Below, in pieces: positions 16,517 to 37,165 of a stretch of DNA of 37,165 bases. The notes under the pieces are model-generated. The model searched no databases. It was not told where the DNA came from and worked only from the letters and a program-made list of their open reading frames with translations. Origin of the DNA: a virus; the IMG/VR virus record IMGVR_UViG_3300047409_000294, positions 1-37,165 of that record; one strand, 5' to 3'. Both the position numbers and the translations under genes were made by a program. Every line of letters begins with the position of its first letter. Position 1 is the stretch's first letter.

Positions 16517-16648
16517 ATGAGAAAGGTACTGATTTTGGTTCTGCTGGCAGTGAGTGGGTTGGCGTATGGAAGTTGTCCGCCTGACAGACCTTATGGGTGT
16601 GTGATGACTTTGAGTGGGAAGATGAGGTGTGGGTGCGGGATCTCGTAA
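16517..16648 (+). CDS. Small secreted Cys-rich peptide
   Basis: 43 residues from ATG 16517, with an excellent AAAGGAGG ribosome site. A signal peptide (MRKVLILVLLAVSGLAYG) should be cut before SCPPDRPYGCVMTLSGKMRC, leaving a mature peptide of ~25 residues with four Cys, two disulfides possible. Exported peptides of this kind can act at the periplasm or outer surface. The gene overlaps the cytidylyltransferase gene, so it is part of the same transcription unit. Confidence 0.6.
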   Translation: MRKVLILVLLAVSGLAYGSCPPDRPYGCVMTLSGKMRCGCGIS

Positions 16649-17533: not shown

Positions 17534-17534
17534 C

Positions 17535-17840: not shown

Positions 17841-18772
17841 AAATTCTCCTTACAGGTTCTCACGGTTATAAGGGTTCTGTTCTTCTTCCAAAACTCGTAG
17901 AGAAGCATGAAGTCATCACCTTGGATATAGGTTGGTTCGGTGGGCGTCCTGATTTAAAGATGGATATCAGGGATGTGATGGACCCACTGCTTCCAGATGC
18001 CCCGGCAGACGCAATCATCCACTTGGCTGGTATTGCAAACGACCCCTGTGGAGAACTCGATGCCAAGCTGACTTGGGAGGTAAATGTTTTAGGGACGATG
18101 AGACTCGCAGACTGGGCCGTGAGGTCAGGAGTGAAGCAGTTCATCTTCGCTTCTTCTGCAAGCGTCTATGGGGTTAAAGGTGCTGGGTCGATTACCGAAG
18201 ACCTACCGCTTGAACCTGTCTCCGACTACAACAAGACCAAGATGTGCGCCGAGAGAGTCCTTCTGTCCTACTCGGACAAGATGCTGGTCCAGATCATCCG
18301 CCCTGCGACTGTCTGCGGAGTCTCCCCCAGGATGAGACTTGATACGATGGTCAATATGCTTACCATGCAAGCCTTGGAGAAGGGTGAGATCACCGCCCAC
18401 TGTGGAGAACATGGGGGGGATCTTATGAGACCTAATATACATATAGACGACATCACAGACTTATACGTGTGGCTCCTCGAACATCCCGAAGTCAGAGGTA
18501 TCTACAACGCAGGCTGGGAGAATCTGTCGGTGATGGAAACCGCAGAGAAAATAGCAAAGAGAATCCCCTGCGAGATCAAGATTACCAAGGTGGCTGACAA
18601 GCGAAGCTACAGGATAGACTCTACAAAGCTCCTGAAAGCGGGTTTCAAACCAAAGAAGTCTGTCGGGGTAGCTATAGCCGAGATCACCGAAGCCTACAAG
18701 CAAGGCTTGAGACCTCAACCTAATATGATGAACTTGGCGCACATGAGAACATTGGGTATTGTTGCCAAATGA
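17837..18772 (+). CDS. NAD-dependent epimerase/dehydratase (extended SDR)
   Basis: 311 residues from GTG 17837. Rossmann start MKILLTGSHGYKGSVLLPKL (GxxGxxG variant TGSHGYKG), then IIHLAGIANDPCGELDAKLT, the catalytic FASSASVYG Ser, and the YNKTK Tyr-Lys pair (Y-x3-K). HIDDITDLYVWLL is the typical substrate-domain phrase. Length is normal for the family. It changes a nucleotide-sugar (epimerase or dehydratase); the exact substrate cannot be read. Part of the overlapping chain of genes. Confidence 0.85.
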   Translation: MKILLTGSHGYKGSVLLPKLVEKHEVITLDIGWFGGRPDLKMDIRDVMDPLLPDAPADAIIHLAGIANDPCGELDAKLTWEVNVLGTMRLADWAVRSGVKQFIFASSASVYGVKGAGSITEDLPLEPVSDYNKTKMCAERVLLSYSDKMLVQIIRPATVCGVSPRMRLDTMVNMLTMQALEKGEITAHCGEHGGDLMRPNIHIDDITDLYVWLLEHPEVRGIYNAGWENLSVMETAEKIAKRIPCEIKITKVADKRSYRIDSTKLLKAGFKPKKSVGVAIAEITEAYKQGLRPQPNMMNLAHMRTLGIVAK

Positions 18773-19311
18773 AGAAATGTAAAATTTGCGGAATTGAAAA
18801 ATCAGAGACGGCTTTTCCAGCTAAGAGATATTCTCTTCAGTGCCAACAATGTTATGCAAAGAAACAAGCATCGTACTACCAGAAAAACAAGGAAATTTAT
18901 AAAAAGAGAAATGCAGAGTGGGCAAAAAAACACCCCGATAGGATGTGTGCTTTTTCAAAGAAATGTAGGGATGCTAATAAAGAGAAATATCGGGAGCAAA
19001 ACAGGAAGTGGTTTAAGGAAAATGCCGGTTTAGCTAATGCCAAACAGGCGAAAAGGTTGTCAGCGAAGCTAAAGGCAACTCCAGAATGGGCAGATTTATC
19101 TGCGATTAAAGGCGTTTATATAGCTGCTTCTAGAAAGACCAGAGAGACAGGCATTCCCCATGAGGTAGATCATATCTATCCATTGCAAGGGAAAACTGTT
19201 TGCGGTCTTCACGTTGATAATAATCTTAGAGTTTTGACTGCCTCTGATAATCAGAGAAAGAAAAATAAAATGCCTGATGAATGGCAGCAAGAAATTTGTC
19301 CAATGTTATGA
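18769..19311 (+). CDS. Free-standing HNH homing-type endonuclease
   Basis: 180 residues, overlapping both neighbours by 4 bases. N-terminal Cys4 zinc finger (CKICGIEKSETAF, then CQQCYAKKQ), a Lys/Arg-rich middle, and HNH-type motif HEVDHIYPLQGKTVCGLHVD then NNLRVLTASDNQRKKNKM. The gene is visibly more A/T-rich than the epimerase genes on either side, a sign of recent arrival. Such endonucleases spread through phage genomes by cutting alleles without them; it does not belong to the sugar pathway. Confidence 0.8.
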   Translation: MKKCKICGIEKSETAFPAKRYSLQCQQCYAKKQASYYQKNKEIYKKRNAEWAKKHPDRMCAFSKKCRDANKEKYREQNRKWFKENAGLANAKQAKRLSAKLKATPEWADLSAIKGVYIAASRKTRETGIPHEVDHIYPLQGKTVCGLHVDNNLRVLTASDNQRKKNKMPDEWQQEICPML

Positions 19312-20177
19312 AGTATCTGGTTTTAGGCAGTTCGAGTTTCTATGGGAAATCGTTTCTCAAATTCCTCCATGAAAAAGGCGAAGACGCCCAAGGGCTTGCT
19401 CGGCCAGAGTTTGATCTCAGAAAAGACTTCAGACTTCCTCAAGCGGACGTTATCGTCAACTTCATTGCCGAGAGTCTTGTTGCCGAATCTTGGGAAGACC
19501 CAGAAAGATGGCTCCAAACCAACATCGTCCTCACGAACAGGCTATTTGAGGAGATACGCAAGAAAGAGGTAAGCCTCTATATACATATAGGCACTCCCGA
19601 GGTCTACGGTTCAAACACGAGCTGGATCAAGGAACGCAGAGACTACCTTCCGACCACCCCCTACGCCGTCTCCAGAGCTTCAGCGGATATGCTTCTGTAT
19701 ACATACTGGAAGGCGTACAGGTTTCCAATGATTATCACTCGGACGGCTAATATCTATGGCCCTGGACAGCAACCTTTCAGACTCATACCTAAAGCTTTCA
19801 GCTTACTTGGAGAAGGAGAAAAATTCCCGATCCACGGAACTGGAAAATCTCAGCGTTCTTTCATTCATGTTCTGGACGCTTGCAAGGCGCTTTGGATACT
19901 CAGTAGAGAAGGTCAAGTCGGGGAAACGTATCACATCTCAACCCAGAAAACGCACTCGATCCTCGAAGTCGTGAGGATGATAATCAGAATACTTGGTAAG
20001 GGTGAAGTCGAATTCAAGATGGACAGACTGGGTAAAGACCATGCCTACCTATTGAACAGCGACAAGATGAGAAAACTGGGCTGGTATGACCATATCGAAC
20101 TTGAACAAGGACTCAAAGACTATGCAAATAATGGCAATTTCGTTGAAGACAGCAGAAGAATTCCTCTCCAAGCATGA
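19308..20177 (+). CDS. NAD-dependent epimerase/dehydratase with atypical active site
   Basis: 289 residues from ATG 19308 (overlapping the HNH stop). Rossmann start MKYLVLGSSSFYGKSFLKFL, IHIGTPEVYGS, TTPYAVSRASADMLLYTYWK, TRTANIYGPGQQPFRLIPKA and RSFIHVLDACKALWIL follow the dTDP-glucose 4,6-dehydratase/GDP-sugar dehydratase line. Odd points: the glycine motif is loose (GSSSFYG) and the catalytic Tyr is followed by Arg instead of Lys (YAVSR), so activity may be altered. Cofactor binding still looks possible. Second of two such enzymes in the cassette. Confidence 0.8.
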   Translation: MKYLVLGSSSFYGKSFLKFLHEKGEDAQGLARPEFDLRKDFRLPQADVIVNFIAESLVAESWEDPERWLQTNIVLTNRLFEEIRKKEVSLYIHIGTPEVYGSNTSWIKERRDYLPTTPYAVSRASADMLLYTYWKAYRFPMIITRTANIYGPGQQPFRLIPKAFSLLGEGEKFPIHGTGKSQRSFIHVLDACKALWILSREGQVGETYHISTQKTHSILEVVRMIIRILGKGEVEFKMDRLGKDHAYLLNSDKMRKLGWYDHIELEQGLKDYANNGNFVEDSRRIPLQA

Positions 20178-20388
20178 AAGACACTATAAAGCTCCTGTGG
20201 AGCCTATTTGCGCTATTGGGGTTGGGGATGAGTCTGGCCTGCATGGTGCTGCTGTACTTGGTCGTAATTCAGATGATGCAGAACTAGCCCACATCTATGT
20301 TGACGGTGCATCTCAAGGGTATTCGCTCCTTTACGGGGCCTGCTGGCGCGCACTCAAAGCTCTAGGGTATGTCAGGACGGTTCTCTAA
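20131..20388 (+). CDS. XF1762-like phage protein, C-terminally short
   Basis: 85 residues from ATG 20131 (MAISLKTAEEFLSKHERHYK), overlapping the end of the epimerase. The phrases APVEPICAIGVGDESGLHGA A, then LLYGACWRALKALGY match XF1762-type phage proteins, which are usually ~150 residues and continue beyond this point. Here it ends in VRTVL where the E1 alpha gene begins (ATG 20369). It may be a truncated remnant bounded by the incoming cassette or a short functional version. Confidence 0.6.
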   Translation: MAISLKTAEEFLSKHERHYKAPVEPICAIGVGDESGLHGAAVLGRNSDDAELAHIYVDGASQGYSLLYGACWRALKALGYVRTVL

Positions 20389-21097
20389 AAGACTTCGTGC
20401 GTTCGAGCATCGAATTCTTCAGAATCTGGACAAGATTAGGTGTCCAGTTCACCTTAGTCTTGGTAGTGAAGACATATCAGAAGCTCTTCATGCTTGTGTT
20501 CGGAAAGACGATTGGGTGTTTTCCACGCACAGAAACCACTCGCACTATCTTGCTAAGGGTGGGAGCGAAGACCGCTTGTGGGATGAAATATGCGGACTTG
20601 AATCCGGCATCAATGGAGGACTGGCCGGATCGCAATGTTTTTCTGATCCCTCTATCAATTTTCACGCCAGCTCAATCGTGGGCGGGTCGATTGGTATTGC
20701 TGTTGGGACGGCTCTTGCGCTTAGAGGAAGTGGAAATATCGTCTTCTGCTGTTTCGGAGATGCTGCGACGGAACAGGGTGTATTTTGGGAATCACTGAAC
20801 TTCTCGGTACTGAAAAAACTCCCCATCACCTTCATCTGTGAAAATAACGGACTGTCTATAAATGTGCCGATTCAGGAGAGGCAGGCGGACTCGGAGGTAT
20901 CAACAGTCGGTGTTGGACAAGGGGTAAGGCATTTACGAGCTTCTGGACATCTTTGCAAGAGGGTGTCTTCTTTCGGTATATCTACGAGGCAGATTTCAGG
21001 TAACTCAGGTTTTGAGTTCGGGCGTCACAATGAACCATATTTCATAGAAGTCTGTTATGAGCGGGAGGGCGATCATTGCTATTTTCCGAAGCAATAA
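20369..21097 (+). CDS. Thiamine-diphosphate-dependent E1 alpha-like subunit (short)
   Basis: 242 residues. Shows the E1 alpha pattern: RAFEHRILQNLDKIRCPVHL, STHRNHSHYLAKGG, SIVGGSIGIAVGTALALRGS, the ThDP/Mg motif region CFGDAATEQGVFWESLNFSV followed by FICENNGLSINVP (GD...NN), and EPYFIEVCYEREGDH near the end. Usual E1 alpha chains are 320-370 residues, so about a quarter is missing after the cofactor motif. With the beta-like chain it should bind ThDP and perform 2-oxoacid or ketol two-carbon chemistry. The substrate is unknown. Confidence 0.8.
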   Translation: MSGRFSKRLRAFEHRILQNLDKIRCPVHLSLGSEDISEALHACVRKDDWVFSTHRNHSHYLAKGGSEDRLWDEICGLESGINGGLAGSQCFSDPSINFHASSIVGGSIGIAVGTALALRGSGNIVFCCFGDAATEQGVFWESLNFSVLKKLPITFICENNGLSINVPIQERQADSEVSTVGVGQGVRHLRASGHLCKRVSSFGISTRQISGNSGFEFGRHNEPYFIEVCYEREGDHCYFPKQ

Positions 21098-21582
21098 ACA
21101 AAGCTCTCGATGAAGCTCTTCAAACTCCTGATGTTTTGTTATGTGGTCAACTTGTTAGACATGATCATTCTTTGCTTACTCAAGGCTTGTGGGTTAAGTA
21201 TTCGGATAAAGTTATTACTTACCCGGTGGCTGAAAACCTGATGAACTCTTCAGCGATGGGACTTTCTCTGGCTGGTAAAAGACCTGTCATGATCCACGAG
21301 AGATTCGACTTCTGCATGGTGGGAATGGATGCACTGGTGAATCACATCCCTCTCTGGAGAAAGAAGTGCGGAGTGAAACTTCCACTGGTAATCATGCCAA
21401 TAGTGGGTCATGGAAAAGGACAGGGACCGCAGCAGAACAAGGATTTCACAAAATGGTTTCAGGAAATGAGTGGTTGGGAAGTCGTAGTCCCTAAAGACCC
21501 GGAATTTGCCTATCGTTCTTTGAAGAAAGCCATCTTCGGAGACTCACCAGTGATGTTTGTCGTTCATAGGGAGCTTTACTGA
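21076..21582 (+). CDS. E1 beta-like pyrimidine-binding domain protein (short)
   Basis: 168 residues from TTG 21076, with GGGAGGG as ribosome site ~7 bases upstream and a 22-base overlap with the alpha gene. Pattern of the transketolase-like pyrimidine-binding domain: MLFSEAINKALDEALQTPDV, KVITYPVAENLMNSSAMGLS LAGKRPVMIHE with the key Glu, and GVKLPLVIMPIVGHGKGQGP QQNKD. The C-terminal transketolase domain of normal E1 beta (~325 residues) is absent, like the compact two-subunit decarboxylases ComDE. It should complete the ThDP site with the alpha chain. Confidence 0.75.
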   Translation: MLFSEAINKALDEALQTPDVLLCGQLVRHDHSLLTQGLWVKYSDKVITYPVAENLMNSSAMGLSLAGKRPVMIHERFDFCMVGMDALVNHIPLWRKKCGVKLPLVIMPIVGHGKGQGPQQNKDFTKWFQEMSGWEVVVPKDPEFAYRSLKKAIFGDSPVMFVVHRELY

Positions 21583-22178
21583 TGTTCCCAGAAGGCTCGA
21601 TGGCTGGATATAGCTGGGATCAAGACCCCAAGAGATTCGCTTTCACCACCGCAAGATACAAGTTCGTCGCCAAGATGGTAGAAGGTAAGGATAAAGTCCT
21701 TGAGGTTGGATGTAACGATGGGTTCTTCTCAAGAATCGTAAGACAGCATGTCAATCATCTGGTGGGGATGGACAACAATCCTATTGCAATAGACCTTGCC
21801 AAGCAGATGAACTCAGAGAAGTGGAATATCTACTTCCAACAGTGGTCTATCATGGACTCTACAGTTTTGAGTCAACCAGGATTCGATGCAGTTTATTGTC
21901 TCGATGTTTTCGAGCATATAAAAGATGAGGATACCCTCCTACGGAACTTGGCGTTCTTTTCGGACATGTGCATCATCGGCACGCCTAGTCTTGAATCTCA
22001 GGCGTATGCTTCGCCGGTCTCCAAAGCGGCACACGTTAATTGCGTCACCAAGAGCCAACTACGGCAGAAAATGAAGAAATACTGGAAGCACGTAATCATG
22101 TTCGGAATGAATGACGAGACTCTAACAACTGGTTTTGATCCGATGTGTCAGTACCTTTTCGGGATAGGATTCAAATGA
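21582..22178 (+). CDS. Class I SAM-dependent methyltransferase
   Basis: 198 residues, ATG 21582 overlapping the previous TGA by one base. SAM site: KVLEVGCNDGFFSRIVRQHV (motif I), VGMDNNPIAIDLAK (motif II, acidic Asp), GFDAVYCLDVFEHIKDEDTL (motif IV) and a UbiG/Methyltransf_11-type C-terminus. No target-recognition domain for DNA. In this setting a sugar or glycan is the likely acceptor. Second methyltransferase domain of the window after the one in the 31715 gene. Confidence 0.8.
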   Translation: MFPEGSMAGYSWDQDPKRFAFTTARYKFVAKMVEGKDKVLEVGCNDGFFSRIVRQHVNHLVGMDNNPIAIDLAKQMNSEKWNIYFQQWSIMDSTVLSQPGFDAVYCLDVFEHIKDEDTLLRNLAFFSDMCIIGTPSLESQAYASPVSKAAHVNCVTKSQLRQKMKKYWKHVIMFGMNDETLTTGFDPMCQYLFGIGFK

Positions 22179-22351
22179 CAGAATCAGATGAGATTCTAGC
22201 TTTGAAAAAAGCGATTCGTTACGCAAATGAATGGTTGCTAATTGGAGAGGGCGTCGGATTGACCTACTATCATAGTGACTATTGGGGTAAAGACTGTTCT
22301 GATTCCGTGCAAACAATCAATAGAGTTCTCAATGAAACTCCCACGTCCTGA
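22175..22351 (+). CDS. Small phage protein in sugar cassette
   Basis: 58 residues from ATG 22175, overlapping the methyltransferase stop by 4 bases. MTESDEILALKKAIRYANEW, then LTYYHSDYWGKDCSDSVQTI is acidic and aromatic with no recognised domain. It overlaps the start of the radical SAM gene by 20 bases. Looks like ordinary small phage coding interleaved with the enzymes. Confidence 0.5.
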   Translation: MTESDEILALKKAIRYANEWLLIGEGVGLTYYHSDYWGKDCSDSVQTINRVLNETPTS

Positions 22352-23402
22352 GCCTGCCCTTGGAGTTCTCGCCTACGCCCAAGAGCGTGACTTGTGCGTG
22401 AATATGGACCGCAGGAAGTCCGATAACTACAGAAATTACATCCAGACCAAGAATCTTGGCTGGAGGGCGACAATAGAATATCTCCCTATAAAACTGGACA
22501 TTGAAAACTGCTCCCGGTGTAACTTCGCCTGCACCATGTGCGCAGTCTCCAAGTGGAAGCACGGTAAAAGAGCCGAAGACATGTCTTTGGAGGACTTCAA
22601 GAAGCTCATTGACGAGCAATACGGGTTGGTAGAGATCAAATTGAACGGTCTGGGCGAAGCCCTGATGCAGGGGGATGAGTATTTCGAGATGGTCAAGTAT
22701 GCAAGATCAAAGCATATCTGGGTGAGGATGACTACCAATGCCTCACTTCTTCACTTGAGGGACAACTACAAGAAATTGATCGACTCAGATGTGAACGAAA
22801 TCGACATCAGCATAGATGGGGCCGATCAGAAGACTTTTGAAGGCATCAGGATACAAAGCGACTTCGATCAGGTCATCAAAAACGCCAAGATGCTGAATGA
22901 CTACTGCGCCGGGACGAGAACTAAGATGTGGACACTGGTGCAGAAGGCCAATTATAGAAACTTAGCAGAGCATCTTCATCTGGCGGAGTACATGGGATTC
23001 AAGAATGTCGTTTTTAGTATGAATATGCACGGTTGGGCCGATCCTGAGCTAAAGAAGCGAAACGAAGAGGAAATGGTCAACCTGAGTGAGGACTATATTG
23101 GCCACTTGATGGAGACAGCCAGAAACAAGTTCATCAAGCTCTCCTTCTGGGATGTCAACGATAAATTCGACACCGATTTGATGCAACACCGCTGTCCGTG
23201 GCCTTTTGAGAGAGCTGTAGTGACCTCAGACTTAAGAACAGTACCTTGCTGTATGGTGGGTGATCCAAGTCGGTTTGAGTTTGGTGGTGGAAAATTGACG
23301 TTCATGCAGAACTGGAAGAGTAAGGAATACGTTGATTTCCGTCAGGCTCACATAGACGGCAAGATTCCTGATATTTGCAAATCATGCTACAAAAATGCCT
23401 AA
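22332..23402 (+). CDS. Radical SAM protein with SPASM-like C-terminus
   Basis: 356 residues from ATG 22332; the frame extends upstream but without need. The radical SAM motif CNFACTMC (C63-x3-C67-x2-C70) binds the [4Fe-4S] cluster, followed by GEALMQGDEYFEMVKYARSK and TTNASLL, EIDISIDGADQKTFEGIR, as in the TIM-barrel family. The C-terminus CPWPFERAVVTSDLRTVPCC...DICKSCYKN is a SPASM-type auxiliary cluster region. Such enzymes do difficult oxidations or epimerisations on sugars, peptides or glycans. In this cassette a sugar step is likely; a peptide substrate, e.g. the Cys-rich product of 16517, is an alternative. Confidence 0.85.
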   Translation: MKLPRPEPALGVLAYAQERDLCVNMDRRKSDNYRNYIQTKNLGWRATIEYLPIKLDIENCSRCNFACTMCAVSKWKHGKRAEDMSLEDFKKLIDEQYGLVEIKLNGLGEALMQGDEYFEMVKYARSKHIWVRMTTNASLLHLRDNYKKLIDSDVNEIDISIDGADQKTFEGIRIQSDFDQVIKNAKMLNDYCAGTRTKMWTLVQKANYRNLAEHLHLAEYMGFKNVVFSMNMHGWADPELKKRNEEEMVNLSEDYIGHLMETARNKFIKLSFWDVNDKFDTDLMQHRCPWPFERAVVTSDLRTVPCCMVGDPSRFEFGGGKLTFMQNWKSKEYVDFRQAHIDGKIPDICKSCYKNA

Positions 23403-24543
23403 AGCTCTCATTCTTGGAGGCGGGTTTGCAGGGACTACTACAGCTTACCTTCTACAGAAGGAGGGTTATGAAGTTACCCTCATCGAAAAGGAACCCCACC
23501 TAGGAGGAGGTTGCAGGACGTTCTTATATGGAGGTCATCCGTTTCAATACGGGCCAAGGGTCTATTATGGCTACTCGCAAAAAGTCTTCGACTGGGTCAA
23601 TTCGTTCACGCCGATCAGGCGGTTCCCGTTCGAACTACGAACATTTGTCGAAACGGAGGGGAGGTTTTTCCATTACCCAATACATCAAGATGACCTACCC
23701 CAAATGGGGAAGTATGAGCAGATCAGAAAAGAACTTGGCGAAAGAGATAATTCGACTGAGCCTAAAGATTTCGAGGAATACTGGATAAACCGTGTAGGGC
23801 GGACGCTGTATGACATGTTCGTCAACAACTACTCCAAAAAGATGTGGATGATCGAAGACAATAAGATTTTCGACATCTTCAAGTGGTCAGCCAAAGACAA
23901 GCCCATAGAGTCAGGGCCAAAGGGAACGTATAAGGACAGTATCATAGGTTATCCATACGCTCATGACGGGTACAACCAGTATTTTGAGAAGATGACTGAG
24001 AATGTTGAGGTAGCTTTTAGCGAAATCGTAGTGCCGACTCATCCTTGGCCGATGAACTATGACGTTGTAATAAATACCACTCCTATTGACGAATTTTGTG
24101 CATTTGAGTTCGGGGAACTTCCCTATGTCGGCAGAGACTTTCAGGTAATCATCCTTCCCTGCAAGCAAGTCTTTCCGGCTGATATAAGATTCTGCCACTA
24201 CGCAGGGTCTGAACCTCATACCAGGATAACCGAGTTCAAAAAACTGACCTATCATGAATCTGAAGACACCCTCTTGGTCATTGAGACCCCTTCGCATAAG
24301 AACAAGCTCTACCCTTATCTCACCAAAGCAAATATGGCTACCGTGGGGAAATATCTGGCTTCCCTACCGCCAAATGTATATTCCATCGGGCGTCTCGGGA
24401 CGTATAAATACAGCACGATTGAGCAAACTATCTGTCAAGCATTTGAAGTGGTATCGAAAATTACGGGTAAGCCAAATCAAATGTCCGACCAGTTTTTCGG
24501 CATCGGGGACACTTCAATGATGAAAGCCAGAAAAGATGCCTGA
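23395..24543 (+). CDS. UDP-galactopyranose mutase-like flavoprotein
   Basis: 382 residues, overlapping the radical SAM gene by 8 bases. FAD-binding start MPKALILGGGFAGTTTAYLL, LIEKEPHLGGGCRTF, then YGPRVYYGYSQKVFDWVNSF in the place of the UGM 'HxFH' segment, YSKKMWMIEDNKIFD and IGRLGTYKYSTIEQTICQAF near the end, as in the UGM C-terminal FAD motif. Length fits (360-390). UGM converts UDP-galactopyranose to the furanose form for O-antigens and galactans. Some active-site residues differ (FQYGPRVYYG), so the sugar may be another hexose. Confidence 0.8.
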   Translation: MPKALILGGGFAGTTTAYLLQKEGYEVTLIEKEPHLGGGCRTFLYGGHPFQYGPRVYYGYSQKVFDWVNSFTPIRRFPFELRTFVETEGRFFHYPIHQDDLPQMGKYEQIRKELGERDNSTEPKDFEEYWINRVGRTLYDMFVNNYSKKMWMIEDNKIFDIFKWSAKDKPIESGPKGTYKDSIIGYPYAHDGYNQYFEKMTENVEVAFSEIVVPTHPWPMNYDVVINTTPIDEFCAFEFGELPYVGRDFQVIILPCKQVFPADIRFCHYAGSEPHTRITEFKKLTYHESEDTLLVIETPSHKNKLYPYLTKANMATVGKYLASLPPNVYSIGRLGTYKYSTIEQTICQAFEVVSKITGKPNQMSDQFFGIGDTSMMKARKDA

Positions 24544-25458: not shown

Positions 25459-26890
25459 ACCCCGTCAGGGTTTAGCCTTTCAAACTTCTGCAACAGAGGT
25501 TCTATATGGCGGAGCAGCCGGAGGAGGGAAATCCTACCTTCTCAGAGTTTCGGCGATCAGATGGTGCATGGAAGTATCCGGTATTCAAGTGTATTTCTTC
25601 AGACGGACCCTCCCAGACTTACGAGACAACCATCTACGCGGACCGACATCCTTTTTTGTCATCCTTGCCGATCTCTTACAAAGCGGAGACGTTAAGTATA
25701 GAGCGCAAGAAAATGAATTTGAGTTTTGGAATGGAGCCATTCTCCATCTATGCTACTGCGACAGTGAAAACGATGTCGAAAAGTATAGAGGGGCGGAAAT
25801 ACATGTACTTTGTATTGACGAACTAACACATTTCTCCGAATACCAGTATAGATTTCTTCGTTCTCGCGTCCGCAGGGCAGGTCTTGAAGTGCCTGAGAAG
25901 TACAAAAGTATGCTCCCCCGGATAGAAACAGCCTCTAATCCTGGGTCAATAGGTCATGCTTGGGTCAAGAGGACTTTCGTAACCCCTAAACCTCATAATG
26001 AACTCTGGAGGGCTTCTTCAGACGAAGGGGGGATGTTGAGACAATTTATCCCTGCAAAGCTCTCAGATAACCCTCACCTTACCAAAGACGATCCCACTTA
26101 TGCAGACAGACTTAAAGGGCTTGGAACCGATAGTCTGGTACGGGCAATGCTCGAAGGGGACTGGAATCTCGTGGCAGGTCAAGCCTTCGAGAAGCTTCAC
26201 CGTTCTACACATAGTCTTGAGCCCTTCGACCCCCCTGAAGACTGGTTATGCTTTGGGAGTTTCGATTGGGGGAGTTCTAAACCTTTCTCATACGGTATGT
26301 GGACAATATCAGATGGTAGCTTGGCTATAGGAGATAAGACGCCACAACGCGGTTCAATGATAAGGTTTGATGAATGGTATGGGTGGACTGGAAAACCAGA
26401 TGAAGGCCAGCGCATGGATGTCAGGGAAGTTGCCTTGGGTATTTTGAAGCGTGAAGATGAAAGAAGAATGGCCTATAGAGTTGCTGACTCCAGCATTTGG
26501 AAGGTGGATGGAGGTCCATCTATTGCTGAAACATTTAATAGGTATGGGGTCGTTTTCAAGCCTTCTGCCAAGGGTCCTGGTTCTCGTCATAACGGATATA
26601 TAGAGACAAGAAATAGAATTGCAGGCAATGATGAAGGTCCAATGCTTTTTGCTACAGAAAATTGTCATGATGGTTTTTGGAGAACAATTCCAGACTTGGT
26701 GCTTGATGAGCATAGACTTTCCACTAAAGAAGATGCTGTGGATACAGACCAAGAAGACCATTGCGGTGACGATACAATGTATGCGTGCATGAGCCGCCCT
26801 TGGATGAGACACGTAGATAAAGATGCTGTAAAAGTAAAGGACTGGCTCTTTGCAGAAGAAGAGCACGCTGAAGAATGGAGAGTGGTATGA
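25439..26890 (+). CDS. terL: Terminase large subunit
   Basis: 483 residues. Walker A at residues 24-32 (GGAAGGGKS), Walker B at 121-129 (IHVLCIDEL, D127/E128), an ATPase coupling stretch (ETASNPGSIGHAWVKRTF) and the nuclease domain starting at FGSFDWGSSKPFSYGMW (first metal Asp) with later acidic residues (RVADSSIW, KEDAVDTDQEDHCGDDTMYA). It pumps DNA into proheads and cuts it. Length and pattern fit Terminase_6 type proteins of P22/Bcep22-like podoviruses. Its usual partner is at 15490. Confidence 0.9.
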   Translation: MNGIRLEPRQGLAFQTSATEVLYGGAAGGGKSYLLRVSAIRWCMEVSGIQVYFFRRTLPDLRDNHLRGPTSFFVILADLLQSGDVKYRAQENEFEFWNGAILHLCYCDSENDVEKYRGAEIHVLCIDELTHFSEYQYRFLRSRVRRAGLEVPEKYKSMLPRIETASNPGSIGHAWVKRTFVTPKPHNELWRASSDEGGMLRQFIPAKLSDNPHLTKDDPTYADRLKGLGTDSLVRAMLEGDWNLVAGQAFEKLHRSTHSLEPFDPPEDWLCFGSFDWGSSKPFSYGMWTISDGSLAIGDKTPQRGSMIRFDEWYGWTGKPDEGQRMDVREVALGILKREDERRMAYRVADSSIWKVDGGPSIAETFNRYGVVFKPSAKGPGSRHNGYIETRNRIAGNDEGPMLFATENCHDGFWRTIPDLVLDEHRLSTKEDAVDTDQEDHCGDDTMYACMSRPWMRHVDKDAVKVKDWLFAEEEHAEEWRVV

Positions 26891-29163
26891 GCGACGACCT
26901 TAAGATAGATCACGGAGTCTTGTGTGAGTGGGTTACTGAGTTCGAAGACGCGATGGAGGACTCAAGAGCACTTTCTGAGAAAAGTCGCGACTACTACGAC
27001 TCGAAACAATGGACCGAGGCCGAGGTCAGAAAACTCAAGGCTCAGAAACAGGCCCCTACAGTCTCAAATAGGATCAAGCCGAAAATCGACTCCCTGATGG
27101 GGATGGAGACTACAAACAGGACTACGGCTAAAGCCTTCCCAAGGACTCAAAAGCATGAAAAAGCTTCAGAGGCCGCTACTGAGTCAATCAGGTTCGTTCT
27201 AAAAGACAATTCTTTCGAGACTGTGAGGTCTTCTGCTTTTGAGAACATGTTGATCGAAATGTCCGGTGGATGTGAGGTCATAGTAAAACCTTCAAAGAAG
27301 GATGAAAAAGACTACAAGGTAATCATCAATCACATACCTTGCGATAGACAGTTCTACGACCCGCACTGCCGTACAAAGCACGTCACTGAAAAGACTTCCA
27401 GATATGCCGGTCAGATAGTGTGGATGGACCTTGACGAAGCCATTGACCAATACCCTGAAGGCAAGGACGTTCTCAATTCCATGCTGGATGGGTCGTCTGC
27501 TTTTGAAGACAAACCACGTTGGTTCGATTCAAAAAGAAAGAGGGCGAAAATAGTAGAAATCTACTATAACAAAGAGGGTGATATTTACTACTCTTGTTTT
27601 ACTAAAACTGGCTATCTTGAGAAGCCAAAAATCTCTCCCTACAAGAACGAAGAGGAAGAAACTGAATGGCCTTACGAATACGCATCTCTTTTTGTTGACC
27701 GTGATGGAGGGCGTTACGGTGCTGTGAGACAGCTTCTTGATATGCAGGACGAGATCAACAAGCGTAGGAGCAAGGCACTTCACTTGATGTCTGTCAGACA
27801 GGTAAGGGGAGAAAGGGGCGCTGTAGAAGACGTTGAAAAGGCCCGTAAGGAACTAGCCAAACCTGACGGGTATATCGAAACGACTCCTGGGATGGAGTTC
27901 GAAGTTTTAAAGACCGGAGATATGGCTGCGGCGCAGTTCAATCTATTGACCGAAGCCAAACAAGAGATAGACGCTGTAGGGGCGAATGCTGCTTTGATGG
28001 GCAAGACTACCAATCAGGATGCTTCAGGACGAGCCCTTCTGGCAAGAGAAGCCGCTGGCAAGACCGAGTTGGCTCCAGTATTCGATGTTCTCAAAGGTTG
28101 GGATTACAGGGTCTATAAGAAGGTCTGGAACAGAATCCATCAGTATTGGAAGGCAGAGAAGTGGATCAGAGTCACCGATGATGAGCAGAATTTGAGATGG
28201 GTGGGTCTTAACAAACCCATGACAAGGGGTGAGCTTGCTCTCCAGACCGCTCAGGAGCAAGGTGCCGATCCTCAAGCCCTTGCACAGCTTCAGCAGCAGA
28301 TAGCCATGGACCCCATGTCCAAAGAGGTAGTCCATACCCAGAACGACATAGTAGAGATGGACGTTGACTTAGTCCTAGACGATGTACCAGACGCTATTAC
28401 TTCGCAGATCGAGGACTTTCAGACCTTGGGTGAGATGGTGAAATCGGGGTTTCCAATACCTCCCATGGCAGTGATAGAGGCTTCTCCGCTTACGAACAAG
28501 TCTCGTATTTTGAAGATGATGAAGGAGCAACCACAAGTCCCTCCGCAGATCCAGGAGCAGATGAAGAAAATGCAGGAAGAACTGCAAAAGACAACGGAGG
28601 AGAACCAGCAATTGAAGGCTGGAGCACAGGTAGAAGGCGCGAAGATTCAGGCAGACCAACAGGCTTCAGCAGCGAAGATGGCAATGCAGAAAGCCGAGAA
28701 AGAGGCCGAACTACAGCTTCAGCGAGAGGCACAAGCGGCTGAACTACAGCTTGCCAGGGAAAAGGCTGCTGCCGAAATAGAAATCAAGCGGATGATGGCA
28801 GAGGCTGACTTGGAGATAGAGACGAAGAAATTGGAACTGAACGATAAACATGAAACCAATAAACTCGCCATGCAGCACAGGCATGAAACAGCGAAGATCG
28901 CCATGACTGACGACCACGAGAACAAGAAGCTCGATATTGAAAAGCAGAAGATGAAAAAAGAGGCCGATGCGAAGAAAGAAGTAGACGGAGAAGCGGTAGC
29001 TCCTGAACTACTTAAAACCATGAAAGGCATGGTCGATACATTCACAAAGGCTATGGAGTCAAGAGACAAGCATATGGAGTCTTTGGTTAAAGAGATTTCC
29101 AAACCCAAGACGATTACAGCCAAGAGTTCCTCTGGGGCTACTTTGACGGCTACAACTCATTAA
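26887..29163 (+). CDS. P22-type portal protein with long coiled-coil C-terminus
   Basis: 758 residues from ATG 26887, overlapping the terminase stop by 4 bases. Typical phrases: MGMETTNRTTAKAFPRTQKH, SGGCEVIVKPSKKDEKDYKV, YAGQIVWMDLDEAIDQYPEG, DEINKRRSKALHLMSVRQVR and VGANAALMGKTTNQDASGRA. It forms the dodecameric ring at the packaging vertex. Residues ~550-700 are a long Gln/Lys/Glu-rich coiled coil (QEQMKKMQEELQKTTEENQQ, then AEKEAELQLQREAQAAELQL), perhaps a barrel-like extension as in P22. Confidence 0.9.
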   Translation: MSDDLKIDHGVLCEWVTEFEDAMEDSRALSEKSRDYYDSKQWTEAEVRKLKAQKQAPTVSNRIKPKIDSLMGMETTNRTTAKAFPRTQKHEKASEAATESIRFVLKDNSFETVRSSAFENMLIEMSGGCEVIVKPSKKDEKDYKVIINHIPCDRQFYDPHCRTKHVTEKTSRYAGQIVWMDLDEAIDQYPEGKDVLNSMLDGSSAFEDKPRWFDSKRKRAKIVEIYYNKEGDIYYSCFTKTGYLEKPKISPYKNEEEETEWPYEYASLFVDRDGGRYGAVRQLLDMQDEINKRRSKALHLMSVRQVRGERGAVEDVEKARKELAKPDGYIETTPGMEFEVLKTGDMAAAQFNLLTEAKQEIDAVGANAALMGKTTNQDASGRALLAREAAGKTELAPVFDVLKGWDYRVYKKVWNRIHQYWKAEKWIRVTDDEQNLRWVGLNKPMTRGELALQTAQEQGADPQALAQLQQQIAMDPMSKEVVHTQNDIVEMDVDLVLDDVPDAITSQIEDFQTLGEMVKSGFPIPPMAVIEASPLTNKSRILKMMKEQPQVPPQIQEQMKKMQEELQKTTEENQQLKAGAQVEGAKIQADQQASAAKMAMQKAEKEAELQLQREAQAAELQLAREKAAAEIEIKRMMAEADLEIETKKLELNDKHETNKLAMQHRHETAKIAMTDDHENKKLDIEKQKMKKEADAKKEVDGEAVAPELLKTMKGMVDTFTKAMESRDKHMESLVKEISKPKTITAKSSSGATLTATTH

Positions 29164-29763: not shown

Positions 29764-30345
29764 ATGCCTCAGTTAGACCAAGATAGCTTTACTTATAGTG
29801 ATGGTGCTCTTGCTGGAGCTTCAGGTGCCAAATGGACCAAGCTTTCAGGATTTACCGATGTCAGTGTCGCCAGCAATCAGGTAACGGGTAATGGTGGAAA
29901 CTGTGTCGCTGTCATCACGACTTGGTCAGGAAGTACTACAGACCAATACTCACAAATTACCACGGCGACATCTGCCGCACCCGCAGATAATGGCGGTCCA
30001 ACAGTGCGATCAAACGCTGTGGACACATTCTACCTGTGCTATGGAGGATTCAACGCAGGCTCGCAATATAGTGCTTACAAGTGTGTGGGTGGTGTCTATA
30101 CCTCGATTGGTACTGCTGGCGGGACTCCGAGTAGTGGCGATGTTGTCTATATTGAAATGCAAGGTTCGACGATTGTTTGCAAGGAAAACGGCGGAACAAT
30201 CATTACTGTTTCAAGCGAGTCATCCATAGCAAGCGGGAAACCAGGAATACAGACCAATGCTGCTGCTGCAAAATCTGATGACTGGGTAGCAGGAGACTTC
30301 GCCGTTGGCGATACTTCAACTCCTTTCCTTAATTTCATCTTCTAA
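29764..30345 (+). CDS. Beta-sandwich virion protein (LamG/concanavalin-like)
   Basis: 193 residues starting right after the previous stop. Gly/Ser/Thr-rich, beta-rich: QDSFTYSDGALAGASGAKWT, SVASNQVTGNGGN, YKCVGGVYTSIGTAGG, VVYIEMQGSTIVCKENGG and SGKPGIQTNAAAAKSDDWV. This follows the pattern of jelly-roll domains seen in phage tail or fibre-associated proteins, often carbohydrate-binding. Probably exposed on the virion. Its TAA overlaps the next ATG by one base. Confidence 0.65.
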   Translation: MPQLDQDSFTYSDGALAGASGAKWTKLSGFTDVSVASNQVTGNGGNCVAVITTWSGSTTDQYSQITTATSAAPADNGGPTVRSNAVDTFYLCYGGFNAGSQYSAYKCVGGVYTSIGTAGGTPSSGDVVYIEMQGSTIVCKENGGTIITVSSESSIASGKPGIQTNAAAAKSDDWVAGDFAVGDTSTPFLNFIF

Positions 30346-31718
30346 TGGCCTCAGTCAGACACGCTACTTCAGTACAAGGTCCGGACGATCCCGGTAAGTC
30401 TGTTCAGGCTGCCCAGTGGAATGAAAATCACACGCTTGTAAATGTAGCCGACCAGACCTCACTGGATGCGGTGAGTGCTGCGGTTTCAGTAGTAGCCGCA
30501 CAGCTTTCTGCTCTGAGCGTTACGGTTGCAGGCATAGGCGGTGGTGAAGTCCACCCAACTTCAGCAGAATTCATAAGCCTTCAGGCGGATTTTTCAACCC
30601 TGAGCATTCAGGTAACAAATGTCTCCGCTGCGGTATCTGTAGTAGCAGTCAATCTCTCAAATGAGATTTCCCTAAGAGCCTCACAGATCAACACTGCTTC
30701 AGGTGCTGTGAGCACTTTGAGCCTCGCAGTTTCCGTTGTCGCTGCCGCGCTTTCCAATGAGACATCAGCACGCATAGCTGGAGACAATGCTGCCTCAGGG
30801 GCGGTGAGCACCTTGTCACTGGCCGTATCAGTAGTAGCTGCTGCACTATCCAATGAGATTTCTCTAAGAGCGGCACAGATCAATACAGCGTCTGGTGCTG
30901 TCAGTACCTTGAGCCTTGCTCTGTCGGCAGAAACGGCAGCAAGGATTGCCGGTGATAATGCCGCCTCCGGCGCTGTCTCAACGCTGAGTCTTGCCGTTTC
31001 AGTAGTAGCGGCAGCACTTTCGAATGAGATTTCGCTTCGTGCCTCTCAGATAAACACAGCCTCTGGAGCGGTTAGCACTCTGTCACTGGCTGTTTCAGTC
31101 GTCGCGGCTCAACTATCGACTACTAGCGTGCAGGTCACGGCAGTGTCAGCCGCTGTATCTGTCGTAGCTGCTGGCTTGAGCGCATTGAGCGTTTCCAATT
31201 CTGCCATGCAAGCGCAGTTGAATACCTTGAGCGTTCAAGTCTCTACGATTTCCGCTCAAATGACATCCATTGCAGCTTCCAAGATCGTGATGCTTGGAGC
31301 ACAGACTATTTCAGTATCTGCCCTTACAAACGTCTCGGGGCAGGCTTTCTCGGTAGGGGCGAATAACACCTACGCCTTCAAATTCATGATTATCTACCAG
31401 ATGGCATCTACTACAAGCGGTTTGGGACTTTCCCTGACCTTCCCCGGAATGAAGACCTTCGCCGCTCAAGCTGAGATACCTTCTGCTGCTAATGGAGTAG
31501 CGCAACTCTTTACCGGTGCTATAGCGACCACTGGAACGAAGATTCAAGCTCTTTCATGTCAGACGGCGGCTACAGACTTCTACGCCAAGATAGAAGGTGT
31601 CTGTCAGGTATCTACTACTGGGACTCTGCAACTCCAAGCAAACGCTGGTATCGGTGGTACTTCTGCTCAAGCTATTATCAGACCTGGGACTTTCGGGATG
31701 ATATGGAGGGGAGCTTGA
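30345..31718 (+). CDS. Ser/Thr/Ala-rich repeat fibre protein
   Basis: 457 residues. Residues ~105-255 hold five copies of a 25-32-residue repeat (ISLRASQINTASGAVSTLSL AVSVV... alternating with TSARIAGDNAASGAVSTLSL), with heptad-like Ala/Val/Leu spacing fitting a trimeric coiled fibre. The C-terminal ~140 residues form a beta domain (YAFKFMIIYQMASTTSGLGL SLTFPG) typical of phage fibre ends. N-terminal part VQAAQWNENHTLVN is a common attachment phrase. Very rich in Ser/Thr, hence a good acceptor for O-glycosylation by the gene that follows. Confidence 0.7.
   Translation: MASVRHATSVQGPDDPGKSVQAAQWNENHTLVNVADQTSLDAVSAAVSVVAAQLSALSVTVAGIGGGEVHPTSAEFISLQADFSTLSIQVTNVSAAVSVVAVNLSNEISLRASQINTASGAVSTLSLAVSVVAAALSNETSARIAGDNAASGAVSTLSLAVSVVAAALSNEISLRAAQINTASGAVSTLSLALSAETAARIAGDNAASGAVSTLSLAVSVVAAALSNEISLRASQINTASGAVSTLSLAVSVVAAQLSTTSVQVTAVSAAVSVVAAGLSALSVSNSAMQAQLNTLSVQVSTISAQMTSIAASKIVMLGAQTISVSALTNVSGQAFSVGANNTYAFKFMIIYQMASTTSGLGLSLTFPGMKTFAAQAEIPSAANGVAQLFTGAIATTGTKIQALSCQTAATDFYAKIEGVCQVSTTGTLQLQANAGIGGTSAQAIIRPGTFGMIWRGA
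30660..31110 (+). repeat. In-frame repeats coding the fibre shaft
   Basis: Five degenerate repeats of ~75-96 bases code the alternating NTASGAVSTLSLA and GDNAASGAVSTLSLA units. The nucleotide copies have drifted at third positions, so the array is old but kept in protein. Confidence 0.75.
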
Positions 31719-33076
31719 AGCAGCTTGATGTCCTGAAAACCAAGGTAGAAACCTCATACTGCATCTCAGCGGAGAGACGAACAGAACAGATGCTGCTGGC
31801 GAATTCACGTATCTTGGGAAGGGTTCAACCTGCTGACAGGACTTATGACGAAGAAATAGCCATTGTCTGTTACGGCCCTTCTCTGAGAAAGACATGGAAG
31901 ACGATCAAGAGTTTCAAGAAGATCATGACCTGCTCTGGGGCGCATGATTTTCTTATTGAGAGAGGGATTATTCCTACTTGGCACGTTGATCTTGACCCAA
32001 GAGAACATAAGCATCTGCAATTAAAGCCTCATAGAGATGTTGAGTATCTAATGGCCTCATGCATACATTCAAAGGTTCTCGATAAGTTGGAAGGATTCAA
32101 TGTCAAGCTCTGGCATATATATGCCGGAGAAACTGATAAGACACTGCCAACTGTCTATCCAAGAGGAGACTGGGTTTTCACAGGTGGTAATAACGTAGGA
32201 ATGAGATGTATGGTAATAGCAAGAGTTTTGGGTTATAGGAATTTCAATATATTCGGAATGGATTGTTCCTTTCCAAAGGACTGCAAGAGTCATCATGCAG
32301 GAAAACATGCTAATGAAAACAAGATAATTTATGAGGCTCCTTTCGATGGAAAGATGTACTACTGCGAGCCAGTGATGCTTGACTATGCACGTAACTTCTT
32401 CCACGAAGTAGAACAACTCCCAGACGTGAAAATAAAGATGCATGGAGAGGGTCTTTTACAGCACATGGTTCACAAAAAGTCAGGTGAGAAGATCAAGACC
32501 AAGCCCAAAGCGGTGATAGCATTTTCAACCCCGGTAACCATCACCAAGGAATACACAGAACTCAACCGCAAGATGCACCTAAACCCTGTCTATGGGATAG
32601 GGGGTAGGGCTAGAAAAGAAGTAGTTCTGAAGCTCTCAGAAGCACTCAAAACGAGGTCAATTCTGGACTACGGTTGTGGTAAGGGGACTCTGGCTCAGTC
32701 TTTACCATTTCCTATTTGGGAGTACGACCCTGCAATACCTGGAAAGGACTCAGTCCCACGTACAGCTGATTTGGTCGTATGTCTTGATGTTTTAGAACAT
32801 GTAGAACCTGAGATGCTGGATAACGTCCTTGGGGATTTAGTAAGGTGTGCTGACAAGATGGTATTTGCGATCATAGACACAGGTCCGGCTGACAAAGAAC
32901 TGCCAGACGGAAGAAATGCTCACCTGATTCAGAAGGATAAAGACTGGTGGGAGGAAAAACTGGGGAAATACTTCAAGATCGGGACCGTCTTACAAACCGG
33001 TCCTGAACTGCACTGCGTTCTTGAACCCAGAAAGATGGAGCCTATTGAATCAGGGCCATCAGGTCGGCAGGACTGA
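31715..33076 (+). CDS. DUF115 (MAF-like) domain fused to a SAM methyltransferase
   Basis: 453 residues from TTG 31715, whose TTGA overlaps the fibre stop and has GGAGGGG just upstream; ATG 31703 is an alternative. Residues ~45-180 show the DUF115 pattern: IAIVCYGPSLRKTWKTIKSF, SGAHDFLIERGIIPTWHVDL, then GGNNVGMRCMVIARVLGYRN FNIFGMD. DUF115 occurs in MAF flagellin glycosyltransferases. Residues ~310-430 are a class I methyltransferase (SILDYGCGKGTLAQSLPFPI, VVCLDVLEHVEPEMLDNVLG). A fusion of glycan transfer and methylation next to a Ser/Thr-rich fibre suggests virion modification. Confidence 0.8.
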   Translation: MKQLDVLKTKVETSYCISAERRTEQMLLANSRILGRVQPADRTYDEEIAIVCYGPSLRKTWKTIKSFKKIMTCSGAHDFLIERGIIPTWHVDLDPREHKHLQLKPHRDVEYLMASCIHSKVLDKLEGFNVKLWHIYAGETDKTLPTVYPRGDWVFTGGNNVGMRCMVIARVLGYRNFNIFGMDCSFPKDCKSHHAGKHANENKIIYEAPFDGKMYYCEPVMLDYARNFFHEVEQLPDVKIKMHGEGLLQHMVHKKSGEKIKTKPKAVIAFSTPVTITKEYTELNRKMHLNPVYGIGGRARKEVVLKLSEALKTRSILDYGCGKGTLAQSLPFPIWEYDPAIPGKDSVPRTADLVVCLDVLEHVEPEMLDNVLGDLVRCADKMVFAIIDTGPADKELPDGRNAHLIQKDKDWWEEKLGKYFKIGTVLQTGPELHCVLEPRKMEPIESGPSGRQD

Positions 33077-34632: not shown

Positions 34633-35727
34633 ATGGCTCAGACATATGCACAGCCTGGGTTAACTCCGCAAATTTGGGACTCGAATTTTTTTAGAGACTA
34701 TGTTCGAGCATCCAGATTTCGGAGATACATGGGCACAGACGAAGCCTCGATCATCCAACTGAAAGAGGAGTTGACCAAGAAGAGGGGCGATTCCGTTACC
34801 TTCGCTCTTGTAAATGAACTTGTAGGAACTGGTGTAACTGGTAACAACACCCTCCGTGGTAATGAAGAAAGACTGGGTTCCCGGTCTATGAAGCTGACGG
34901 TGGACGTTCTGAGACACGCCGTAGCAGTGGATGACTGGGATGACCAAAAGTCTGTAATCGACCTTCGGATGGCAGCTCAGACCCAACTTCGGGAATGGGC
35001 ACAAAAGAAGCTCCGGGATGCAATCATCAGTGGTCTGGGTGAGATCGACGGGACGGCTTTTGAAGCTGCGACTGGCGCTGCTAGAACCACATGGAATACC
35101 AACAACGCAGACCGAGTCCTGTTCGGGTCCACCACGGCTAACTACACAGCTAACTTCGCCTCGGCAGCCGCTTCAATCGGCTCTGGTGAGCAGCTTGGAC
35201 CGCTGACTTTGAGTTTGATGAAAAGACTTGCCCAAAAGGCTTCTCCGAAGATCAAGCCCATCTATGTCAAGGAAATGGACCAGGAGTGGTATGTAGCCTT
35301 CATAGGTTCTCGTAGTTGGAGAAACCTGACTGAGAACAACCCCACTACCAACGTCCTGACCCTTGCGAATCGGGATGCTCGTATCCGTGGGGAAGACAAT
35401 CCTCTCTTTACCGGAGATTCTCTGGTTTGGGACGGGATCATCCTTCGGGAAATCCCAGAGATCCAGCCTTTGCTTGCTGTTTCGGGGTCTGCTGGTACTG
35501 CACTTGAGCCGGTTTATCTGTGTGGTGCTCAGGCTATTGGTATTGGTTGGGCACAGAGAACCAAGTCCACCACTGACCTTACTGACTATGGATTCCTGCA
35601 TGGAGTCGGAGTTCAGGAGATTCGGGCTATCAAGAAGCTGCGGTTCGGGACTGATCCAACGGTTGATTTAACGACACCGAAGGATCACGGCATAGTGACG
35701 GCCTTCGTCGCAGCGGCTTCGGACTGA
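34633..35727 (+). CDS. Major capsid protein, N4 gp56 family
   Basis: 364 residues. N-terminus TPQIWDSNFFRDYVRASRFR RYMG, then EASIIQLKEELTKKRGDSVT FALVNELVG, RGNEERLGSRSMKLTVDVLR HAVAVDD and REWAQKKLRDAIISGLGEID are the N4 gp56-type coat pattern (HK97-like fold). Ends with a beta-rich domain typical of P22/N4 coat proteins. It forms the icosahedral head. Preceded by scaffold and followed by a small head protein, as in other podoviruses of this type. Confidence 0.9.
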   Translation: MAQTYAQPGLTPQIWDSNFFRDYVRASRFRRYMGTDEASIIQLKEELTKKRGDSVTFALVNELVGTGVTGNNTLRGNEERLGSRSMKLTVDVLRHAVAVDDWDDQKSVIDLRMAAQTQLREWAQKKLRDAIISGLGEIDGTAFEAATGAARTTWNTNNADRVLFGSTTANYTANFASAAASIGSGEQLGPLTLSLMKRLAQKASPKIKPIYVKEMDQEWYVAFIGSRSWRNLTENNPTTNVLTLANRDARIRGEDNPLFTGDSLVWDGIILREIPEIQPLLAVSGSAGTALEPVYLCGAQAIGIGWAQRTKSTTDLTDYGFLHGVGVQEIRAIKKLRFGTDPTVDLTTPKDHGIVTAFVAAASD

Positions 35728-36243: not shown

Positions 36244-37165
36244 TTGGAACTATTCGAGGAAGCAACAGAACTACACAAGGCTGGAAAATTCAAGGAAGCA
36301 GAAGAGAAGTATGATCTGCTTTTCACTCAAAACCCCAATAACTCAGGTCTGATTGCGACCTACGCTACCCTGTGTCTTCAAACCGACAGAATCGGTCTTG
36401 CGATAAGCCTTTATCACAGGGCTCTGGAGAAACTTCCAAACCAGAGCGAAGTCCTTTCAAACCTTGGCCTTGCTTATAAAAAAGCAGGACAGAGAGAAAA
36501 AGCCTATCAATATCTTGAGAAGGCTTGCAAGTTCAATCCGACGGCAGAAGCACTTTCGAACTATGGTGGTCTTTACACTCAGACTGCTAATCCTGAAAAA
36601 GCCATAGACCTATGTTCCAGAGCTATTCAAAAGAATCCTGAACTCATCATCGCCCACTGGAATCTTTCACTAGCACTTCTGGAGTCTGGTCAATGGGAGA
36701 AAGGCTGGGATGAACACGAGTGGGGTCTTAAAAAAGGCCCGCCCAGTGCTTCAAAGATGAGGGTAGATAGAGAACTCGGTGGTAAACCTCAGTGGGACGG
36801 AACTCCAAACAAGACTGTAGTTGTTTACGGTGAGCAGGGTCTGGGAGATGAAATCATGTTCGCCTCCATGATCCCTGATCTCATGAAAACCAACAAGGTT
36901 ATTATCGAGAGCCATCCAAGACTTGAAAAACTCTTCTGGCAGTCGTTTGGATGTAAAGTCTTTGGGACAAGAGAGAAGGAAGATCCAGAGTGGGTCAAGA
37001 ACAATGAATTCGACTACAGGATATCTATAGGCTCTCTGGGGAAGTTCTTCAGAAGGACTAAAGAGTCATTTCCCGGTACACCCTATCTGAAGTCTGAAAA
37101 AGCTCCAGAGATTGGTAAATTCAGAGTGGGGATTTCATGGACCGGAGGGCATAAAGCCTCAAGAG
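36244..37165 (+). CDS. TPR protein with C-terminal glycosyltransferase-like domain (3' end outside window)
   Basis: The frame is open to the window end. I use TTG 36244 as start, but the frame is open upstream to CTG 36211 and no clear ribosome site is seen. Residues ~1-155 are tetratricopeptide repeats (EEATELHKAGKFKEAEEKYD, VLSNLGLAYKKAGQREKAYQ YLEKA, IAHWNLSLALLESGQWEKGW). Then GEQGLGDEIMFASMIPDLMK and FRVGISWTGGHKASR follow the heptosyltransferase (GT9)/TPR glycosyltransferase pattern. TPR often binds the protein acceptor; with DUF115 at 31715 it strengthens the case for virion glycosylation. Confidence 0.75.
   Translation, partial: MELFEEATELHKAGKFKEAEEKYDLLFTQNPNNSGLIATYATLCLQTDRIGLAISLYHRALEKLPNQSEVLSNLGLAYKKAGQREKAYQYLEKACKFNPTAEALSNYGGLYTQTANPEKAIDLCSRAIQKNPELIIAHWNLSLALLESGQWEKGWDEHEWGLKKGPPSASKMRVDRELGGKPQWDGTPNKTVVVYGEQGLGDEIMFASMIPDLMKTNKVIIESHPRLEKLFWQSFGCKVFGTREKEDPEWVKNNEFDYRISIGSLGKFFRRTKESFPGTPYLKSEKAPEIGKFRVGISWTGGHKASR

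Follow-up and report, generated by a model that had tools for sequence, protein, structure and literature searches.

A Maf-like DUF115–methyltransferase fusion paired with a Ser/Thr-rich phage fibre: a candidate fibre glycosylation system

The 37,165-bp record of an uncultured virus analysed here (IMGVR_UViG_3300047409_000294; the whole of this stretch is called the window) encodes a protein in which a DUF115 domain (PF01973) is joined to a methyltransferase domain, and its gene lies directly behind that of a Ser/Thr/Ala-rich fibre. A preliminary description of this DNA had drawn attention to the arrangement, and both open reading frames (ORFs) are indeed in place, with both domains above cut-off. 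The same pairing recurs in dozens of other uncultured phages, relatives collected by other genes have either both fibre and DUF115 or neither, and the DUF115 part is related to the catalytic domain of Maf, the flagellin O-glycosyltransferase. O-glycosylation of the fibre with methyl capping of the sugar is the mechanism that explains these observations best, and we consider it somewhat probable.

Fibre and fusion as a recurrent pair

In the fusion protein, PF01973 covers residues 49-192 (E 3e-18) and Methyltransf_23 residues 306-384 (E 6e-7), each exceeding its curated cut-off. The second part has the DxGxGxG-type loop with invariant D322, G324 and G326, the Rossmann order and the fold matches of a class I S-adenosylmethionine (SAM) methyltransferase. 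A scan of viral contigs returned 46 loci with relatives, to which a profile scan added more, and 34 full-length homologues could be aligned end to end, at 42-83% identity to the window protein. Among them the invariant residues of the DUF115 part include S60, P91, H94, D98, G161, G162, F184, G185, D187, H198 and H202, and those of the methyltransferase comprise the D322-G324-G326 loop and most of FPIWEYDP. Neither the DUF115 part nor the fibre was found in 50,697 cultured phage records at the sensitivity of tblastn, which places them beyond the reach of the model phages. The methyltransferase domain alone is present in Caulobacter and other phages; the phrog_24759 methyltransferases (Caulobacter phage, annotated as FkbM family) are 36-46% identical to it over ~150 amino acids (aa) and, unlike the fusion, stand alone without DUF115.

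The fibre body contains 26% serine plus threonine (S+T) and ~6% charged residues. Its stalk is a heptad array with few charges, in which the S/T fraction reaches 0.56 at position b and 0.59 at position e, against 0.26 in shuffles. The model of the head, of moderate confidence (predicted local distance difference test, pLDDT, 72), shows a beta-sandwich that follows a long helix; its nearest PDB entries are the short tail fibre domain of cyanophage A-1(L), 8ke9 (E 9e-6, template-modelling (TM) score 0.42), and tumour necrosis factor-like folds. Leave-one-out profiles recovered this head domain in 24 of 25 cases. The heptads and the predicted head, and not a database annotation, are the basis for calling the protein a putative fibre.

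The pairing was quantified in 33 dereplicated loci, 30 of which had upstream sequence, with 182 other ORFs of at least 150 aa for comparison. The gene upstream of the fusion has a mean S+T of 0.233 versus 0.142 in the other ORFs (Mann-Whitney p 8e-12); it lies within 20 nt of the fusion in 21 of the 30 loci and overlaps it in 13. A larger set comprised about 49 dereplicated phage lineages with the domains in the window's order (DUF-MT), 40 of them with a same-strand upstream gene that could be counted. The upstream gene had an S+T of at least 0.20 in 36/40, and the common fibre head was recognised in 26, a count that is partly circular because the head profile was built from such fibres. No S/T-rich upstream gene was seen at phage loci with the reverse domain order (MT-DUF; 0/10) or at lone methyltransferase genes of phages (0/26) or bacteria (0/34). 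The pairing with a fibre recurs in 26 or more diverged loci that have this head in common and lie on contigs of very different size, and it is supported as specific to the DUF115-methyltransferase architecture. As in a virion glycosylation system, a phage gene of glycosyltransferase type is encoded beside the structural gene that it would serve.

The two genes are also linked by presence and absence. Relatives representing a small number of lineages were recruited independently, by portal and capsid queries and not by DUF115. All slots between portal and scaffold that hold a fibre head also carry DUF115 (L204, on the same contig as L003; L231, on the same contig as L005; and L214), and all those lacking the head lack DUF115 as well (L211/L229, L217, L223, L230, L232 and L235-L237). 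In the cultured relatives Pan3 and CBW1004C, recruited by the capsid protein, portal is followed by scaffold and capsid and the pair is absent. No discordant case occurred among these few lineages. In L214 the fibre is accompanied by DUF115 alone, with no methyltransferase, which indicates that the tie to the fibre lies with DUF115 and not with the methyltransferase. A single-sequence search of viral contigs with the fibre head found two close relatives only. The portal-scaffold slot is variable across this phage group, as it would be if fibre and enzyme were neutral cargo that had moved together by chance, the enzyme having no role in the virion; recurrence of the pairing with one and the same head, and the invariance of residues of catalytic type, make this very improbable. 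The preliminary description had also proposed the fibre as the glycan acceptor; the recurrent, specific pairing and the joint presence and absence support this well and make the fibre the best candidate for that role.

The start of the fusion and the end of the fibre gene overlap by 16 nt, and the ribosome-binding site ahead of ATG 31703 looks weak, in agreement with translational coupling, which we infer for the two genes. This ATG was taken as the start because the N-terminus that it gives (MEG..LK.LDVLKTKV) is common to the homologue L002; the mechanically called ORF start at 31556 was dropped.

Relation of the DUF115 part to Maf

A profile of the 34 homologues has a single clear relative among PDB sequences, that of the Maf crystal structure 5mu5 (E 4.4e-8), and no archaeal HPPK/MptE chain appears in this search at E <= 1. 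The AlphaFold model of the fusion (pLDDT 90.7; predicted template-modelling score 0.86) likewise finds 5mu5 as its best PDB fold match (E 2e-7), ahead of methyltransferases and Methanocaldococcus jannaschii HPPK (8sd5), so that comparison of the predicted structure with Maf, which the preliminary description had proposed as a check, came out in favour of the kinship. The human sialyltransferase 5bo9 is also among the fold matches; the central domain of Maf resembles the sialyltransferase Cst-II, and Maf targets surface Ser/Thr of flagellin (PMC11339370). A genuine Magnetospirillum Maf (L243, with PF20157 and PF01973) aligns with the phage domain at a BLASTP E of 1e-8 and an hhalign E of 4e-10, with the motifs GPS, GIIPxxHV[D/E]L, GxNV, the LG[Y/F] helix end, FGxDC and HH in common. 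The best NCBIfam match is the flagellin-modification model PseD, but far under its cut-off.

PF01973 is named for MptE, and the fold of the domain also fits that of an MptE-like 6-hydroxymethylpterin diphosphokinase: among the PDB fold matches, 8sd5 ranks third (TM 0.63, normalised by target length). The DUF115 part could then be a small-molecule pyrophosphokinase or nucleotide-binding enzyme, and the fusion would make a modified cofactor or nucleotide. This archaeal relative (MptE/MjHPPK) shares Pfam family and fold with the phage domain, whereas a sequence-profile match is absent and the gene context differs; the profile finds Maf instead, as does the PseD match in its weak way, no pterin genes are present among the window genes searched, and the pairing with a fibre would be left without a reason. 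We therefore regard such a role as improbable. At the level of sequence profiles, relatedness to the Maf catalytic domain and not to MptE is supported, and the part probably works in the manner of that domain.

The identification of DUF115 as the Maf domain thus stands for the catalytic domain, by profile, fold and the alignment with L243, and fails for the remainder of the protein. The Maf N-terminal domain PF20157, present in L243, is absent from the fusion, and in place of the C-terminal helical bundle both sequence and model have the class I methyltransferase. Linkage to flagellin or CMP-nonulosonic acid genes was not found either: the neighbour is a fibre, and a CMP-nonulosonate-type synthetase (PF02348) occurs in 0/29 fusion-bearing records, some of which may be fragments. 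Since PF20157 and the helical C-terminal domain are absent, we call the protein Maf-like and do not file it as Maf.

Acceptor, sugar donor and gene neighbourhood

The two domains are found as DUF-MT, as separate genes in L159 and as MT-DUF, this last order in 12 phage loci and also in a Rhodomicrobium genome and a metagenome-assembled genome of Armatimonadetes (Table 1). GT8-like genes adjoin both domain orders, including most of the MT-DUF phage loci, and further fusions add FkbM or Methyltransf_24 domains. Both orders and the split form tie the two activities to one pathway and point to a pathway with exchangeable virion acceptors.

Several observations weigh against glycosylation of the fibre. 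Where it could be read, the MT-DUF phage module stands behind the major capsid gene and the gene of a small protein with S/T, not behind a fibre. Several members of the group around L006-L014/L032/L040 have a small ORF as their closest upstream neighbour, and in L010 and L040 a tryptophan-halogenase-like gene precedes the DUF115-methyltransferase gene. The Maf domains missing from the fusion could be the ones that recognise the substrate, and PF01973 also includes ATP:pterin pyrophosphokinase, with 8sd5 as a close fold match. Phage fibres are often S/T-rich, so the composition is not independent evidence for an acceptor; moreover, S/T stands at positions b and e in a mixed control set too, which included further fibres from these loci, and this control is not clean. 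We accordingly rejected S/T richness as proof of an acceptor. As a separate observation, the halogenase-like gene lies at 4033-5649 of L010, and the group (L010, L040) consists of large phages.

A gene directly behind a fibre often has to do with that fibre in a loose sense only. The fusion might accordingly act on a host surface glycan or on another virion protein, such as a capsid or decoration protein, and stand behind the fibre since late genes concerned with receptor interaction travel together. The swapped-order module (GT8-like plus MT-DUF) behind the major capsid gene would suit such a role, as would the frequency of the methyltransferase domain alone in alpha- and betaproteobacterial genomes, where its stand-alone FPIWEYDP form is widespread (L050-L118). 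The DUF-MT order, however, is specific to fibre neighbours, and close relatives without the fibre lack it as well; the gene lies inside a structural operon, and where glycosylation by PF01973 relatives is known, the acceptor is a filament protein. We take this alternative seriously while holding it unlikely, and return to the fibre as the favoured acceptor.

The source of the sugar is less clear. The preliminary description had assigned it to a gene cassette at 16-25 kb, which encodes a nucleotidyltransferase, a GmhA-like SIS isomerase, an epimerase, a dTDP-glucose-dehydratase-like protein, an E1 alpha/beta thiamine pyrophosphate enzyme, a methyltransferase, a radical SAM/SPASM protein and a UDP-galactopyranose-mutase-like protein. 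In L005/L231, homologues of such genes (kinase, GmhA, nucleotidyltransferase, epimerase and the E1 pair) directly follow the fusion gene, in favour of this idea. Across the 29 fusion-bearing records, however, an NAD epimerase occurs in 6 and a CTP_transf_like nucleotidyltransferase in 3 (2 above cut-off), so most fusion phages lack the cassette. The closest relative keeps the fusion and lacks the heptose part (nucleotidyltransferase, GmhA and first epimerase), its later cassette genes being 76-89% identical; L211/L229 keep part of the cassette genes without fibre or DUF115.

A second candidate user of a sugar donor is encoded at the window's right end, a tetratricopeptide repeat (TPR) protein with a glycosyltransferase-like C-terminal part. 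In a PDB search with its profile TPR matches dominated, and the C-terminal part alone found nothing, so that the glycosyltransferase reading comes from its motif. The gene lies behind the capsid and decoration genes in the window and follows the decoration gene in L229-L232 as well. Judged from its sequence, this protein could be the donor user instead, and the cassette might serve it, or a modification of DNA or head, independently of the fibre system; we come close to an even judgement on this, leaning slightly against it, with the L005/L231 gene order as the main point on the other side. The cassette as the donor source for a fibre glycan is possible and not favoured, and this part of the preliminary description is not upheld. 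In L164, L169 and L174, homologues of the TPR gene were also noted, each immediately ahead of a lone methyltransferase gene.

The right third of the window has the P22-like order of structural genes: terminase, portal, two small genes, fibre, fusion, a 128-aa gene, likely scaffold and major head protein (Table 1). Between portal (26875) and scaffold/major capsid (33660/34633), the genes starting at 29173, 29764, 30345 and 31703 overlap or directly adjoin one another, so that they look like a single operon. The second small gene (193 aa) had no PHROG and no Pfam match above cut-off. Scans for sigma-70 promoters and terminators gave results at chance level, and a tRNA call at 10037 looks spurious. 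Elsewhere, the hexamer AGCCGT is repeated in ~36 tandem copies at 8421-8635, within open frames of both strands. A 285-aa gene at 24601-25458, without a Pfam or PHROGs family, adjoins the terminase and is conserved (61-84% in relatives); in L230/L231 its homologue sits behind the TPR-glycosyltransferase gene, and it may belong to that system.

Table 1. Features of the window, with loci of the swapped-order fusion in other records
Feature	Position or loci	Strand	Remarks
Sugar-nucleotide type cassette	16597..24543	+	Possible donor pathway (link unproven)
Terminase	25439 (start)		
Portal protein	26875..29163	+	Left border of structural-gene slot; phrog_156, 5e-92
193-aa gene of unknown fold	29764..30345	+	Coupled to fibre gene via TAATG
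Fibre gene (457 aa), proposed acceptor	30345..31718	+	N-terminal RHATSVQGPDDPGKSVQAAQWNENH motif, S/T/A-rich heptad stalk, predicted C-terminal beta-sandwich head
DUF115 (PF01973, Maf-like)-methyltransferase fusion (457 aa)	31703..33076	+	
PF01973 / Maf-like domain	31847..32278	+	GPS, GIIPTWHVDLD, GGNNVG, FGMDC and HH motifs
SAM methyltransferase domain	32519..33020	+	Motif I DYGCGKG; signature PFPIWEYDPAIPGKD
Likely scaffold	33660-34484		
Major head protein	34633..35727	+	Right border of slot; phrog_334, 1e-72
TPR protein with glycosyltransferase-like C-terminal part	36244..37164	+	Cut by window end; TPR by Pfam, glycosyltransferase by motif
MT-DUF loci	L153, L154, L156-L158, L160, L162, L172, L173, L180, L192, L196; L048, L049		

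Proposed mechanism and meaning

We propose that the fusion is a cytosolic, phage-encoded Maf-like protein O-glycosyltransferase with a built-in methyltransferase. Through the overlap of the two genes it would be made in step with the fibre. After binding a nucleotide-activated sugar, its DUF115 domain would pass the sugar on to Ser/Thr of the newly made fibre, most plausibly to those at heptad positions b and e of the stalk, which is poor in charges. Methylation of the sugar by the second domain would follow, as a cap or as a block on host enzymes, and in many relatives an adjoining GT8-like or other modifying gene may extend or decorate the glycan. For the most part the host pool would supply the donor; in this phage its own cassette may be the source. 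That Maf is active in the cytoplasm, ahead of export (PMC4065374), fits this proposal, as the phage enzyme would need to do the same.

The fusion shares with Maf/PseD (5mu5) the homologous PF01973 catalytic domain and its motifs, and like Maf it would act beside a filament protein that is rich in Ser/Thr and synthesised in the cytoplasm (PMC11339370, PMC4065374). Unlike Maf/PseD, it has no Maf_flag10_N, no helical C-terminal domain and no nonulosonic acid genes, and it has a methyltransferase and a phage fibre as partner. Virion glycosylation is known in mycobacteriophages, on capsid and tail tube (Freeman et al. 2023, as cited in PMC12691614 and PMC12619734); there too, as far as these citing papers describe it, phage glycosyltransferases modify a phage structural protein, whereas the candidate system described here combines a Maf-like enzyme, a fused methyltransferase and coupling to a fibre. 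In the literature covered, which leaves out most subscription journals, no report was found of DUF115/MptE-like proteins in phage fibre modification. With Maf known from flagella and virion glycosylation from mycobacteriophages, the combination of the two and the fusion to a methyltransferase appear to be a new variant.

On a wider view, which we put forward tentatively and on the doubtful side of even, these phages would share a widespread system that has so far escaped notice: the Maf-like glycosyltransferase-methyltransferase would be inherited as one with its fibre and would place methylated sugars on the regular rows of stalk Ser/Thr, so that the receptor-binding fibres of many uncultured phages would be glycoproteins. 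If true, Maf-type protein glycosylation would extend beyond flagella to the receptor-binding fibres of many phages, with methyl capping in the same enzyme. Sequence-based readings of fibre-host recognition, fibre stability and host range would have to change, and small, soluble, self-paired sets of enzyme and acceptor would become available for studying how Maf-like enzymes choose their Ser/Thr sites.

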